From positions 1 to 64,000 of the forward strand of contig NZ_VUNS01000009.1 of assembly GCF_009695545.1 (NCBI RefSeq): a stretch of 64,000 nt of DNA, given 5' to 3'. Shown piece by piece: positions 39,727 through 48,546 of the stretch. Each line of letters opens with the position of its first letter. Position 1 is the first letter of the stretch. This DNA comes from Victivallis lenta (GTDB lineage Bacteria > Verrucomicrobiota > Lentisphaeria > Victivallales > Victivallaceae). A program made the translations under genes and the position numbers. Below the pieces are notes generated by a model. It was not told the origin of the DNA. It was given only the letters and a program-made list of their open reading frames with translations, and ran no database searches.

Positions 39727-39755
39727 TTGACGAATCCTCTCCGCCGTGGTATCTT
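39727..39755 (+). promoter_or_regulatory. sigma-70-like promoter of the CAT-like gene
   Basis: TTGACG at 39727-39732 and TATCTT at 39750-39755 with a 17-bp spacer. No leader peptide or attenuator of the inducible cat type is visible in the 24 nt before the start. Confidence 0.55.
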
Positions 39756-39778
39756 TCCGGAAAGAGGAGGACGATTTT

Positions 39779-40429
39779 ATGAAAAAAGCGGAATTCCTGC
39801 CGTTCGATCCCGAAAACTGGCCGCGCCGGAGCCATTTCGAGCACTACCGGAAGTCGGGCTGTTCCTTCAACCTGACCGCCAAAGTCAACATCCGGAGCTT
39901 TCTCGACACCTGCCGGCGAACCGGGGTGCGGAGCTATCCCGCGCTCGCCGTGCTCGTGACGCAGACCGTGAACCGAATCCCCGAATTCCGCACCGCCGTC
40001 GATGCGGACGGGCGGCCGGGATACTGGGAGTACGTCTCTCCCTCGCTGCCGGTTTTCCATGAAGAGGACCACACCTTTTCGTGCTTCTGCACTCCCTACG
40101 ACCCGGACGCGCGCAATTTCTATGACGCGCTGACCGCCGACCTCGAACGCCGCAGCAGGGAACGCGGCATCCTGCTCGGCGAATTTCCGCCGAATCTGGT
40201 CCATCTCTCCTGCCTGCCGTGGTTCCCGACAACGGCTTTTTCGCTTGAGCTTCAGGATGCCGGCTGTCTCGCCCCGGTCATCACCTGGGGCAGATACGAG
40301 TCCGCCGACGGACGGACGCTCCTGCCGGTTTCGCTGCGGCTCAACCATGCCGCCGCGGACGGCTGGCACGCCTCCCTCTTTCTCCGGCTGCTCGAAGAAA
40401 GTGCGGCAAATTTCAATATACTGTCTTGA
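39779..40429 (+). CDS. chloramphenicol acetyltransferase-like protein (type A)
   Basis: 216-residue protein with the complete type A CAT layout: FDPENWPRRSHFEHYRKSG at the start, YPALAVLVTQTVNRIPEFR, PVFHEEDHTFSCF, LSCLPWFPTTAFSLEL, and the catalytic HxxxDG in LRLNHAAADGWH (His about 190, Asp about 194). Length equals classical CAT. Whether it acetylates chloramphenicol or another small acceptor cannot be read; chromosomal CAT-like proteins of anaerobes may differ. Excellent ribosome site (AAGAGGAGG, 8-nt spacing), own promoter, and a divergent LOG gene. No mobile element flanks it and base use matches the neighbours. Confidence 0.85.
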   Translation: MKKAEFLPFDPENWPRRSHFEHYRKSGCSFNLTAKVNIRSFLDTCRRTGVRSYPALAVLVTQTVNRIPEFRTAVDADGRPGYWEYVSPSLPVFHEEDHTFSCFCTPYDPDARNFYDALTADLERRSRERGILLGEFPPNLVHLSCLPWFPTTAFSLELQDAGCLAPVITWGRYESADGRTLLPVSLRLNHAAADGWHASLFLRLLEESAANFNILS

Positions 40430-42021: not shown

Positions 42022-42029
42022 GAGGCGAT

Positions 42030-42058
42030 TTGCATAAAACCGCCCCATGCGGTATAGT
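42030..42058 (+). promoter_or_regulatory. sigma-70-like promoter of the SGNH hydrolase gene
   Basis: TTGCAT at 42030-42035 and TATAGT at 42053-42058 with a 17-bp spacer, starting 9 nt after the stop of the preceding gene and 31 nt before the next start. Confidence 0.6.
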
Positions 42059-42089
42059 ATCCACGCAACCAACGCGGAGGAGTCTGTCT

Positions 42090-42800
42090 ATGAAATTCCG
42101 AAAACTTCTGTCGGCCGCGATTCTTTTTTTCGCGGCATTTTTCGTTCGCGGCGTCGAAGTCGTCAATGCCGGGCATTCGGGCTGGAACTCGCGGCAACTG
42201 CGCGAAATTTTCCGGCAGGAGCTCGATAAAAACAGGCCGGACCTCATCATCCTGATGGTCGGAACCAACGACAACCTGAACAGCTACAACCTCGTCCCGC
42301 CGGAAGAGTTCGAGAAAAACCTGACCGCGATGGCCGAGGCCGCCAGAGCCTCCGGCGCCGAGCTCCTGCTCTGCGAAATCCCGAACGCCTGCCAGGAGCT
42401 CATGCAGAAACGGCACAAAGCCGATTTCTTCCGCCGCGAAACCGCCGAAGACAAGGTCCGCCGCGCCAACCAAATCGTCGCGGCCGTGGCCGAAGCGCAG
42501 CGCATCCCCCTCCTGAAAACCACCGAAATCCTCGGGAAAGCCACGACCGACGCGGCCAGTCTCATCCGCAATCCGGCCAACTCCGGCAACGAGGACGGCG
42601 TACACCCGACTCCGAACGGCTATTTCCGCCTGGCCGACGCCATCGCGAAGCGGATCAAAGCCGAACAATGGAAGCCGAAGCGCATTCTCTGCATCGGCGA
42701 CAGCATCACCTTCGGCGCCGCGGTCAAAGGAGCCGGAACCGCCGCTCCCGACGCAGAAACCTATCCCGGCCGCCTCGCCCGGGAATTGAACGCCAGATAG
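42090..42800 (+). CDS. secreted SGNH/GDSL-type hydrolase, circularly permuted
   Basis: 236-residue exported protein (signal MKFRKLLSAAILFFAAFFVR). Catalytic blocks are present but in changed order: block II AGHSGWNS (residues 27-34), block III VGTNDN (57-62), block V with the Asp-His pair in EDGVHPTPNGY (168-178), and only then block I with the nucleophile Ser in CIGDSITFG (201-209, Ser about 205). The protein ends in PGRLARELNAR, which normally leads straight into EVVNAGxSG, the part that here begins the mature chain. No second domain or frameshift remnant follows the TAG at 42798. The natural fold would be complete. Esterase or deacetylase activity on glycans is likely for the family. GGAGGAG is 7 nt before the ATG. 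Confidence 0.8.
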   Translation: MKFRKLLSAAILFFAAFFVRGVEVVNAGHSGWNSRQLREIFRQELDKNRPDLIILMVGTNDNLNSYNLVPPEEFEKNLTAMAEAARASGAELLLCEIPNACQELMQKRHKADFFRRETAEDKVRRANQIVAAVAEAQRIPLLKTTEILGKATTDAASLIRNPANSGNEDGVHPTPNGYFRLADAIAKRIKAEQWKPKRILCIGDSITFGAAVKGAGTAAPDAETYPGRLARELNAR

Positions 42801-44220: not shown

Positions 44221-47200
44221 CTATTCCGGAATCACCTCGATCGCGTTCAGGAAACGCACCGACGGATGCACTCCGTCCGGCACCGTAAAGTCGAGTGTCA
44301 GCATGCCGTCCGTCACTTCGATGCCTTTCATTTCACGCACGATCGCCCGGTTGAAGCTGCCCGTCTCCCGGAACAGGTCGAAGTTGTCGAGGAATCTGCG
44401 CCCGTTGACCGTCAGCGTAAAGACTCCCCTCCCCTCCTTTGCATTCGGTTCGTAGCCGATCTTCAGATAGACCCTCACCGTGTAAGCGCCGTTGCGGACC
44501 TTGAACCGGTAGGCGTCGAGATTGTACGCCTCCGTCGCATAGAGTTCGGGGTCGTCGGTACCTTCGATGTTCTGAATCGCCCGCCCGATCTGGCTGCCGT
44601 CGCTGACGGAGCCGTAAACGCCGTCCCACGGATGATCCGGGAAGAAGAGCGTGCCGTCCTTCGCCACATAATAGTCATACTCGCCGCTGCCGCAGTTCAC
44701 CGCAAAACGCGACGCCCGGATCATCTCCTGCCGCTTCAGCAAATGGCCGTTTTCCGCCGGCGGCAACTGCCGGATCACGCCGTTCAGCAGCTTCGAAAAC
44801 AGCAGCCGGTGCGCTTCGGCGTACTCGTTCCGCCCGACGGCGCGCTTCGCTTCCCCGAGTTTCTTCTCGGCCCTGTCGGATGCGAGCCCGGCCTTCCGCA
44901 GAAACTCCAAGGTCCTGTCGAGCTCCTTCAGGCGCTTTGCGGCCGCCTGCCGCTGGCGCTCCGAAATCTGCGCGCCTTCAACTTTCGGAGCAACTTTGCC
45001 CGGAGTGAAAAAACTGCGCAGTTCGTACGCCTTCAGCGGCAGCGTCAATTTGCCGTCGGGCGGAACCGCCAGCGATTCTCCGGTCGAAAGATCCGTGACA
45101 ATGGTGTCCGCCGGGAGCGAAAGCGTAACTGCGCCGGCGTCCCAGAGCAAACTCGCCGCATAGAAATAGGTGCCGTCCTTCGCCTCGAAATAGCGGACGG
45201 TCACCGGGTCGTGCGGTCCTTCGGCAAGCGTGAACGGCTCGGCCGGCAGCGCCGTATAGGCCCGGGCGAACTCGCGCGCTTCGGCGTCGCGCCCCCAGGT
45301 CCCGATCGGCTGCGCGCCGATGAGAATCCGGGAGGCGTCGGCCGCCGCGACGTTGAACACCAGCTCCTTCAGGAAGAACCGCCCGTGCGGCTTGACGTCC
45401 GCATTCTGGAAGTAAGCCTTGAACACATCCGGCTGCAGCGAATCGTTGAAGGTCTCGAAGTATTGCAGATAGCTGTTGGCCACGCCGGCCGGACCGAACG
45501 GCTTCATGCGCTCGAAGTCGTAGAGCTGCTCGTCGATGGTCGACTCCGGCTTGCCCCAATGCTTCGCCCAGCGATAGTCGGTCGCAAAACGCATGGCCGC
45601 GAGCCGGAAGCCCGGGATTTTCGCCGCGGCGCCGAGGTCGAGCGCGCTGTTTTCATAATACCATTTCGCCGTGTCGATGCCGTCGCCGCTCTCGAGCGCA
45701 TAACTGCCGCGCAGCGGTTCGCCGCTGACCGACAGGACCGTCGACAGCGCCGGATTCGCGGCCTTCACCACCGCCGCAACTTCGGTCAGGAAGGAGGTGA
45801 GCCCGTCGGCCCGGAATTTCAACCATTCATCGCGGTAACGGCCGTTCAGCAGTTCGTAACGCTCCTTCATCGACTCCGGCAGCGCGATGTTCCGCAACCG
45901 CGCGAATTCGCCGGCGGTCCAGTTGTCGTAGCCGTGTTCGGCATTCAGCGTAAAACCGCCCCAGAGGTCGATCCCGCGGAAACCCGGCAGATTGCCGTAC
46001 CGCCCGACGATCCTCCGGATGTGATCGAGAATCAGCCGGCGCGCCTCGGGGTGGAAAAAGTTCGGCGCGGCCGATTCGGCGGCTTCATCCCTGTAATCGT
46101 AAAGCAGAAATCCCTTTTCGCGCAGCGCGGCGCGGTTCTGCGGCTGGAGGTTGAACTCCGGCAGATTGTAGATGTTCACGCTCGATACGAAATCGATGCC
46201 GCTGCCGTGCAGCATGCGGAGAAAGAGCGGCACATCGCCCGGCGCATACGGCAGAAGCCCGTTCCCGACATAGTTGTTCAGCGGATAGAAGCAGAAGTCG
46301 TAGCGAAGGAGCGAGTACGAAAGCATATTCTGCCCTGTGTAGTTCATGTATTCGGCGAGACGGTCGGCCACCCGCCCGGTGCGGAACGGGCTCCGGACCC
46401 GGCTCTCAATGTCGTAGCCGAAGGTCATATCGACGGTCTGGTCCTCGTCGAGATGGCCGAAGCTGCGCGGACGGCAGCCGTCCGGCATTTTCACGGCAAG
46501 TCCGGGCAGCCCCTCCGGCAGTTCGTAGACGCTGACCCGCGACACGGCGGCCGGAAGATGGTCAATCATGGTGCGCGCCTCGAAGAGATAGCGCGATTCA
46601 CCGGGGTAGAACAGATAACGCGTCTTCACCATCCTGCCGGAGTTCGGATACTCGTCCCCGGCTTGAATGCCGCCCTCGAGGCGGTCGCGATGCATCGCCT
46701 CATCGCTTTTCACATACAGATAGAGCCCCATCGAGCGCGGTTTGTCGTCGGGCCACTCGATTTCGAGCAGGACCGGCCTGCCCCGGCGGTGCATGGCCCC
46801 GAACGGAATCTCGAAAGCGAAACGGTTCCCCTTGCGTTCCCCGGCCTCTGTGTACTTCCCGGCCTCGGAACTGCCCTGCCGGACCGGCGCATCCGCGAGA
46901 AATCCGCTCAGCGGAGGAGCGGTCAGATCACGGGTGAAAATCCGCGCTCCGATCTTCAGCTCCGTTCCGGCAGCGGCGGTTTTCCGCTCATACTCCGGGC
47001 GGTAGACGGTCACCGGGAAACTCCGCCGGGCAGGAACTCCCTCCGGGTTTTCGATCTCCGCCTGCAGGTGGTAGAGCTTCTGCGGCAGCTTTCCGGCCCG
47101 CAGGGCAAAGCGCTGCACGCCGGTTGTCCCGACTGGATTGAAGGAGCCCCGGCACAACACCTTTTTCTCCTCCGGGTCGCAGAGCTTCAGCGTGAGTTTC

Positions 47201-48546
47201 CGCGCCGCGAGCGGTTCGTCCGGATCGTATCCGTCCGGCTTCGGCACGCTGTAGAAATCCGCCGGAGCCGCAGCGACTTCGAGGACAACCTCCTCATCGG
47301 TCGTAAAGGCGGCCTTGTCAAGCATCAGGTCGAACGGGACGAAGCGGCGGAATTCGGCGGAGACCTCCCGCCAGGTCAGCGGGCGGTTGTAAACTTTGAA
47401 CTCATCGATCGCTCCGTCGGCCGCGCGGACGAGACCGTTCGTCTCCGGCGCGGAGCCGACCAGCAGCTGTTTCACCTTGCCGAAATCGAAGTTGCCGATC
47501 CGGACCGGTTTCTCATCCATCCAGGTCGAACCGATTTTGTACGGCAGAGCGTTGACATAGATCGTGCTCCAGCCGCTGTTGTCATAGACGAACGCGAGAT
47601 GAATCCAGTCGCCGGGGTGATTGATCGCCCGCATCATGCGGGCCAGCGAAACCGGCTCGAGGTCGCCGCGGCGCGGAAAATCGGCGCGCAGCCAGTTCCA
47701 CCAGAAGATGTTCACGGCGTTTTTCCCGCTCTCATCCTGCCCGGTAAGCAGATGGTACCACGGCATCGAATCGCGCACCTCGCCCTCCCAGTCCGGCCGG
47801 AACCAGAAGCTGAACGCCCCCTGCGACGGATTCAGCCGGACCGGGAAACAGATCCCGGAGTTTCCGTTCCGCAGGGTGCGGATCACTGCCGCCTGACCGC
47901 TCAAACCGGGTTCGAACGAGACGCCGCCGCTCCCCGCCGCCCTGACCGGCCCCGCGTCGGCCGTACCGTCGAACGGCGCATACAGAATCGGCGGAGCCGC
48001 CGGGTCGGCCGCCGTATTCGCCGCCTCGAGCTCCTCGAGCGAGGCGCTGCGGAGCGCGAGGTCGCCGCGGTATCCGTAAGCCTGCACCTCCGCAAGTTCC
48101 CCGAGATCGAAGTCGATGCTGCCGACATACTTCCGGTTGCAGCTGATTTCGATGAAACCGCCGCGGTATTCGAGTTCGAGCTTCGTCCAGGCGTTTGACA
48201 GCGTGCCGGAGAGCTTCGGTGCGATCGGACCTATCGCCTCTTCGCCGCCGGAGAGCGGAACATAGTTGACCGTGTCGCCGCGCGTCAGCAGATGAAGCTT
48301 GCGCCTGCTCCCGACCAGCAGGAACCCGCAGTGCTGCCCGGCCGGATTCAAATTGAAAGTCTGGAACTCGGCGGCGAACCGGAAGTTCGTCCTGCCGCCG
48401 CCGTCGAACAGCGGAACGGTTTTCATCTCCTTCCGCCGTGTTTTCACGGTCAGCATCTTCTGCGGCTCATCATCGAACCGGACCGTTTCGGCATACAGTA
48501 CCCCCGCGGCGGCGATGAGCGCCGCCGAAACCATCCATCGATTCAT
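44221..48546 (-). CDS. very large secreted glycoside hydrolase-like protein with LamG and malectin-like domains
   Basis: 1441-residue exported protein (signal MNRWMVSAALIAAAGVLYAE). It has a lectin-like beta-sandwich (about 20-175), then a LamG/concanavalin domain (about 190-420, ending AIDEFKVYNRPLTWREVSAE), beta-rich linkers, a TIM-barrel-like region (about 770-1100, NLPGFRGIDLWGGFTLNAEH, STVLSVSGEPLRG), a helical segment, and a C-terminal malectin-like carbohydrate-binding domain (SRFAVNCGSGEYDYYVAKDG to the end). The barrel resembles GH42/clan GH-A, but catalytic Glu assignment is uncertain. It follows a pseudopilin gene and a LacI gene on the same strand, 70 nt after the pseudopilin stop. 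Confidence 0.78.
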   Translation of the reverse strand: MNRWMVSAALIAAAGVLYAETVRFDDEPQKMLTVKTRRKEMKTVPLFDGGGRTNFRFAAEFQTFNLNPAGQHCGFLLVGSRRKLHLLTRGDTVNYVPLSGGEEAIGPIAPKLSGTLSNAWTKLELEYRGGFIEISCNRKYVGSIDFDLGELAEVQAYGYRGDLALRSASLEELEAANTAADPAAPPILYAPFDGTADAGPVRAAGSGGVSFEPGLSGQAAVIRTLRNGNSGICFPVRLNPSQGAFSFWFRPDWEGEVRDSMPWYHLLTGQDESGKNAVNIFWWNWLRADFPRRGDLEPVSLARMMRAINHPGDWIHLAFVYDNSGWSTIYVNALPYKIGSTWMDEKPVRIGNFDFGKVKQLLVGSAPETNGLVRAADGAIDEFKVYNRPLTWREVSAEFRRFVPFDLMLDKAAFTTDEEVVLEVAAAPADFYSVPKPDGYDPDEPLAARKLTLKLCDPEEKKVLCRGSFNPVGTTGVQRFALRAGKLPQKLYHLQAEIENPEGVPARRSFPVTVYRPEYERKTAAAGTELKIGARIFTRDLTAPPLSGFLADAPVRQGSSEAGKYTEAGERKGNRFAFEIPFGAMHRRGRPVLLEIEWPDDKPRSMGLYLYVKSDEAMHRDRLEGGIQAGDEYPNSGRMVKTRYLFYPGESRYLFEARTMIDHLPAAVSRVSVYELPEGLPGLAVKMPDGCRPRSFGHLDEDQTVDMTFGYDIESRVRSPFRTGRVADRLAEYMNYTGQNMLSYSLLRYDFCFYPLNNYVGNGLLPYAPGDVPLFLRMLHGSGIDFVSSVNIYNLPEFNLQPQNRAALREKGFLLYDYRDEAAESAAPNFFHPEARRLILDHIRRIVGRYGNLPGFRGIDLWGGFTLNAEHGYDNWTAGEFARLRNIALPESMKERYELLNGRYRDEWLKFRADGLTSFLTEVAAVVKAANPALSTVLSVSGEPLRGSYALESGDGIDTAKWYYENSALDLGAAAKIPGFRLAAMRFATDYRWAKHWGKPESTIDEQLYDFERMKPFGPAGVANSYLQYFETFNDSLQPDVFKAYFQNADVKPHGRFFLKELVFNVAAADASRILIGAQPIGTWGRDAEAREFARAYTALPAEPFTLAEGPHDPVTVRYFEAKDGTYFYAASLLWDAGAVTLSLPADTIVTDLSTGESLAVPPDGKLTLPLKAYELRSFFTPGKVAPKVEGAQISERQRQAAAKRLKELDRTLEFLRKAGLASDRAEKKLGEAKRAVGRNEYAEAHRLLFSKLLNGVIRQLPPAENGHLLKRQEMIRASRFAVNCGSGEYDYYVAKDGTLFFPDHPWDGVYGSVSDGSQIGRAIQNIEGTDDPELYATEAYNLDAYRFKVRNGAYTVRVYLKIGYEPNAKEGRGVFTLTVNGRRFLDNFDLFRETGSFNRAIVREMKGIEVTDGMLTLDFTVPDGVHPSVRFLNAIEVIPE

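Follow-up and report, generated by a model that had tools for sequence, protein, structure and literature searches.

The SGNH (GDSL) superfamily is a large and much used group of enzymes whose members carry catalytic Ser, Gly, Asn, Asp and His residues in the conserved blocks I, II, III and V, and the ordinary order of these blocks (I-II-III-V, or S-G-N-H) is ancestral, given its presence throughout the superfamily. Permuted SGNH/GDSL proteins are represented in the searched literature by the AlgX/AlgJ and PatB1 families, with an H-S-G-N order. AlgX and AlgJ, which are involved in alginate O-acetylation, possess a permuted SGNH core of order H-S-G-N/Y, in which block III carries a Tyr and block V reads DxH (PMC9487903, PMC4148444), and the DHHW family, which includes PatB1 of Bacillus cereus, displays the order H-S-G-N with the motifs KDS, DxRY and DHHW (PMC9487903). 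Permuted families such as AlgX are still counted within the SGNH superfamily (PMC9487903).

The window analysed here, a stretch of 64,000 nucleotides from Victivallis lenta (contig NZ_VUNS01000009.1), harbors a gene at positions 42090 to 42800 (+ strand; 236 codons, ATG start) whose product we read as a circularly permuted SGNH (GDSL) serine hydrolase belonging to a conserved, multiphylum family. We assign a probability of approximately 0.88 to this reading taken as a whole, that is, including the topology, catalytic triad, ester hydrolysis and likely O-acyl glycan substrate proposed below. The protein shares a permuted SGNH core with both AlgX/AlgJ and PatB1, but its order, G-N-H-S with unaltered motifs as opposed to H-S-G-N, indicates that the chain has been cut at a different position. 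It reads DGVH and GTND where AlgX/AlgJ carry DxH and Tyr, displays DGVH and GDSIT in place of the DHHW-family motifs, and matches neither the ALGX nor the DHHW Pfam family. With the ordinary Lipase_GDSL_2/SGNH hydrolases (PF13472; Bacteroides structures 4iyj, 4ppy and 4hf7 and Parabacteroides structure 3p94), it has the four catalytic blocks, the profile and the predicted fold in common; these proteins are, however, of order S-G-N-H, whereas in the permuted family the chain starts and ends between blocks I and II. A literature search conducted mostly without subscription papers and preprints turned up neither a paper nor a solved structure with the G-N-H-S order, and of the 60 chains that a profile search against PDB sequences listed, not one spans the core followed by the block I tail. 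The variant is, therefore, apparently undescribed.

Motif order and gene organization

The open reading frame presents block II (NAGHSG, residues 26 to 31; 42165 to 42182), block III (GTND, residues 58 to 61; 42261 to 42272) and block V (DGVH, residues 169 to 172; 42594 to 42605) ahead of block I (GDSITFG, residues 203 to 209; 42696 to 42716), all on the + strand. Block II, on a strand spanning residues 23 to 28, forms the new domain N-terminus and supplies Gly31 to the predicted oxyanion hole, to which Asn60 of block III is also assigned; block V carries Asp169 and His172, and block I the nucleophile Ser205, between a strand (residues 198 to 203) and a helix (205 to 208). An alignment of 30 diverse homologues shows no variation at, among others, G31, G58, N60, D61, D169, H172, G203, D204, S205, T207 and G209, and thus at any of the superfamily's defining residues. 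The protein is, consequently, a permuted member of the SGNH superfamily and not an ordinary one. This order had already been proposed from the letters of the sequence, and it holds in both the reading frame and the alignment; the same sequence-only reading located block I near the C-terminus with Ser205, which is correct, but at residues 201 to 209, where the motif in fact begins at residue 203.

The transposed segment, comprising a strand, block I and a helix, covers residues 194 to 236 (42669 to 42797, + strand) and is N-terminal in ordinary SGNH members. Its C-terminal helix, TYPGRLARELNAR (42759 to 42797, + strand), is followed directly by the stop codon and in ordinary members joins VEVVNAG (residue 22 onward), which is here the mature N-terminus; both ends agree with those originally claimed.

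A GGAGGAG ribosome-binding site, read from the sequence, precedes the ATG (42076 to 42082, + strand), and a candidate sigma-70-like promoter (TTTGCA-18-TATAGT, matching 9 of 12 consensus positions in a scan) lies immediately 5′ of the gene at 42029 to 42058 (+ strand), two promoter-like sites having been found in this region against 0.2 expected. Residues 1 to 21 (MKFRKLLSAAILFFAAFFVRG; 42090 to 42152, + strand), with a K/R-rich start and a hydrophobic core, are predicted to form a signal peptide, and the orthologue L007 reads FFVSA|VEVV at the predicted junction; the protein is, on these features, probably exported. The suggestion that the signal peptide was installed as part of the permutation event did not hold, as three permuted relatives (L018, L020 and L029) begin directly at block II without one.

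Evidence for circular permutation

The protein matches PF13472 with 82.4 bits, well above the curated cutoff of 32.9, and the best stretch aligns residues 21 to 178 with profile positions 32 to 176; because this stretch begins at position 32, the N-terminus of the protein lacks a counterpart to the start of the profile. Once the signal peptide is removed, the native order covers positions 35 to 176 (80.9 bits), and it is only when residues 194 to 236 are moved to the front that a single stretch spanning positions 1 to 176 of 178 is obtained (94.8 bits). When the chain is instead rotated at block III, as a control, the match is split and its score drops to 74.9 bits. The same rearrangement raises the PF00657 score from 54.5 to 65.2 bits, across positions 1 to 208 of 208, and yields a DUF459 match spanning positions 1 to 196 of 197. 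Against PDB sequences, the alignment of the rotated chain to 9otv runs through the artificial junction (ARELNA---RVEVVNAG) with a gap of just three residues. The comparison of native and rearranged proteins, which had been suggested as a check, thus returned full-length PF13472 and PF00657 matches for the rotated form.

A profile built from canonical (nonpermuted) homologues only gave the same outcome across the family, rotation improving on the native score in each of the 78 permuted homologues (means of 124.8 bits rotated, 103.4 bits native and 62.8 bits for the control rotation). On this profile, the isolated block I tail of the 236-residue protein receives 12.1 bits, at model positions 2 to 18, while the best of 2,000 shuffled tails (400 from each of five family members, this protein included) reaches 2.2 bits; the presence of block I in the C-terminal tail is beyond chance. 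Comparison with an orthologue of 71% identity gave a dN of 0.17 and a dS of 1.6 for the tail, and a dN/dS ratio of approximately 0.10 versus 0.09 for the core, with dS near saturation. Purifying selection therefore acts on tail and core alike.

The cut that created the termini falls between blocks I and II, in the loop leading from the block I helix to the block II strand. An ordinary chain runs from strand beta1 through block I, its helix and blocks II, III and V to a last helix; in the permuted chain, that loop is open, which provides the new termini, and a linker of approximately six residues connects the former C-terminal helix to the former beta1. The triad would consist of Ser205, His172 and Asp169, with an oxyanion hole formed by Gly31, Asn60 and the backbone NH of Ser205, and catalysis would likely follow the ordinary two-step hydrolysis of an ester via an acyl-serine.

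Predicted structure

The AlphaFold2 model of the 236-residue protein, computed from the 30-row alignment, has a mean pLDDT of 94.6 and a pTM of 0.89, with low confidence limited to the signal peptide (pLDDT of approximately 60, versus 98 elsewhere), and in it the strand at residues 198 to 203 leads to the helix that begins at the nucleophile. The model has an alpha/beta/alpha fold, and the nearest solved folds retrieved by Foldseek are the ordinary GDSL acylhydrolases 4iyj, 4ppy, 4hf7 and 3p94 (probability of 1.00; TM-score of approximately 0.5 over some 165 residues). That these alignments span only about 165 residues is as anticipated, since a sequential alignment should not extend any further along a permuted chain. 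The SGNH fold is thus probably restored despite the permutation. Taken with the homologue alignment, the Pfam rotations and the canonical profile, the model bears out a clean permutation, with the cut in a single loop and without loss of the fold or of any catalytic residue.

Distribution of the permuted family

A total of 79 distinct permuted domains were collected. The notion of a single-gene oddity was rejected, as dozens of genes in at least three bacterial phyla show the same rearrangement; the G-N-H-S order is a real variant of a common enzyme fold. The source genome itself encodes four permuted copies (C9:42090, C22:24638, C9:110827 and C7:103074), and two same-genus orthologues (71% and 66% identity) are both permuted. 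With phyla named after that of the locus used as the center of each genome sample, the 30-homologue profile detected permuted full-length matches in at least 38 of 388 genomes of the window's own phylum (E value of 9.1e-47 or better) and, at an E value of 1e-38, in at least 4 of 395 Bacteroidota and at least 3 of 199 Acidobacteriota genomes. Permuted domains are, accordingly, common in the first of these phyla and rarer in the other two. None was detected in the sampled Pseudomonadota (0 of 299) or Bacillota (0 of 299) genomes at this strict threshold and with limited numbers of scored candidates per genome, so that rare members are possible. Named carriers include metagenome-assembled genomes of Lentisphaerae, Victivallales and Kiritimatiellae as well as Chitinophaga, Dyadobacter, Euzebyella, Pedobacter, Adhaeribacter and Membranihabitans. 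A plasmid search returned no matches to the permuted domain, and a phage search returned only weak matches (69% coverage) to Vibrio phage lipases.

Scores on the 30-homologue profile are bimodal: permuted domains reach at least 148 bits, cover the whole profile and have block I late, whereas ordinary SGNH domains remain at or below 122 bits, cover positions 3 to 175 or thereabouts and have block I upstream. The exceptions are contig-end fragments, a full-length match in G226 that has diverged strongly (98.6 bits) and the divergent Bacteroidota protein L057, in which the order is permuted. The closest nonpermuted relatives by score (109 to 122 bits) are canonical SGNH proteins of Verrucomicrobiota, such as L161 (G262), L056 and L061, whose block I and block II sequences are very like those of the permuted family; they differ in that block I is N-terminal and in that they lack the VKGAGTxxGETYP loop which follows block I in the permuted family. 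The L161 segment GDSITKRGYPEELATLLNLEVINSGVAG resembles the tail of the permuted protein fused to its head.

Permutation is masked by local profile matching, Pfam simply displaying an ordinary GDSL hit. A second natural cut point that retains all canonical motifs affords a clean test of how connectivity constrains the SGNH fold, and it shifts the termini to another loop, which alters where further domains can be fused. Permuted and ordinary relatives within the same genomes constitute natural pairs with which the connectivity question is directly testable.

One same-genus orthologue, L008 (G003:C66, 62 to 757), has an in-frame TAG in place of the Trp194 codon. This stop falls precisely at the boundary of the core and block I and would remove the nucleophile from the chain; a broken copy, a sequencing error and a suppressed stop are each possible.

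Genomic context and predicted function

Permuted members occur as stand-alone proteins, with or without a signal peptide, and as fusions, the domain being N-terminal to DUF6259 in L052 and L040, C-terminal in the larger proteins L035 and L039, behind CBM_4_9 in L143 and elsewhere behind weak CBM9_1 matches. L035 is an 1,807-codon frame of the source genome (C22, 5627 to 11047), of which the last 215 residues are the permuted domain and the N-terminal 1,592 residues matched no Pfam family or PDB chain. Permuted domains are also encoded by neighboring genes in one instance (L194 and L134; G135:C94, 40919 to 44442), in frames of 1,448 and 271 codons.

Among the Bacteroidota loci, the neighbors of L043 encode SusD, a sulfatase, a sialate O-acetylesterase and oxidoreductases; those of L046 a SusC-like TonB receptor, a BNR repeat protein and a second, ordinary SGNH protein; and those of L053 a 3-keto-disaccharide hydrolase, a GFO/IDH/MocA protein and an AXE1-like esterase. 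Based on the carbohydrate-binding module fusions and the polysaccharide-locus neighbors of these relatives, the best guess is that the enzyme is likely a carbohydrate O-acyl (acetyl) esterase, which would remove an O-acetyl or other O-acyl group from a polysaccharide or oligosaccharide. Directly beside the 236-codon gene, no obvious sugar-related partner was seen except for a large gene at 44221 to 48546 (− strand), whose 1,441-residue product combines malectin and concanavalin-like lectin domains with a weak GHL10 match and is, judging by these domains, probably a glycan-active enzyme. Upstream, positions 39746 to 40429 (+ strand) encode a chloramphenicol acetyltransferase family protein (PF00302; E value of 1.8e-42).

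Alternative interpretations

The permuted fold might instead serve an O-acyltransferase acting on a glycan, in the manner of AlgX/AlgJ and PatB1, and it is indeed among such acetyltransferases that permuted SGNH families have been described. We consider this improbable, as the protein keeps Asn in block III and the canonical DxxH in block V, where AlgX/AlgJ have Tyr and DxH, lacks the corresponding Pfam matches, and has relatives whose surroundings are degradative (SusD, sulfatase and 3-keto-disaccharide hydrolase), no acyl-donor membrane protein having been seen among the neighbors scanned. A domain-swapped dimer, in which block I of one permuted chain fills the active site of its neighbor, might be imagined because block I, attached by a short linker, lies close to the end of the chain; yet the single-chain AlphaFold2 model folds with the pTM given above and a pLDDT of approximately 98 over residues 191 to 230, which makes the arrangement very unlikely.

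Least credible of all is that the gene is a misassembly or the remnant of a broken tandem two-domain gene, its tail being the start of a lost second SGNH domain. Block I opens an ordinary SGNH domain, and a truncated tandem pair would therefore look alike; but the collected homologues, from many genomes, all keep this order and carry no further core after it, the 71% and 66% orthologues show the order as well, and the tail is under purifying selection. The homologues thus refute this interpretation, and the earlier contention that the gene is not an assembly artifact stands. A genuine circularly permuted hydrolase remains the preferred reading.

Origin of the permutation

We favor, with some reservation, a scenario in which the G-N-H-S proteins represent a further topological class of SGNH enzymes, arising from one ancient permutation, followed by spread and diversification in Verrucomicrobiota-Lentisphaerota, Bacteroidota and Acidobacteriota into stand-alone forms and N-terminal and C-terminal fusions, hidden beneath generic GDSL annotation. 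Trees of the core or of the rotated sequences require three to four changes of the permuted/ordinary label, while a single permuted clade is not rejected by the AU test (P = 0.40 for the core and 0.44 for the rotated sequences), and thus neither a single nor a multiple origin is established. Duplication and trimming, the route originally envisaged, is plausible but unsupported, because neither block I nor the core is duplicated in any permuted member: the tandem-domain intermediates that it led us to expect were absent from all 79 permuted domains, none of which has block I within 110 residues upstream. Adjacent pairs of ordinary SGNH genes, of approximately 300 codons each, were observed at G015:C44 (2573 to 3915) and G267:C38 (14254 to 15584), an arrangement from which a permutation could arise.
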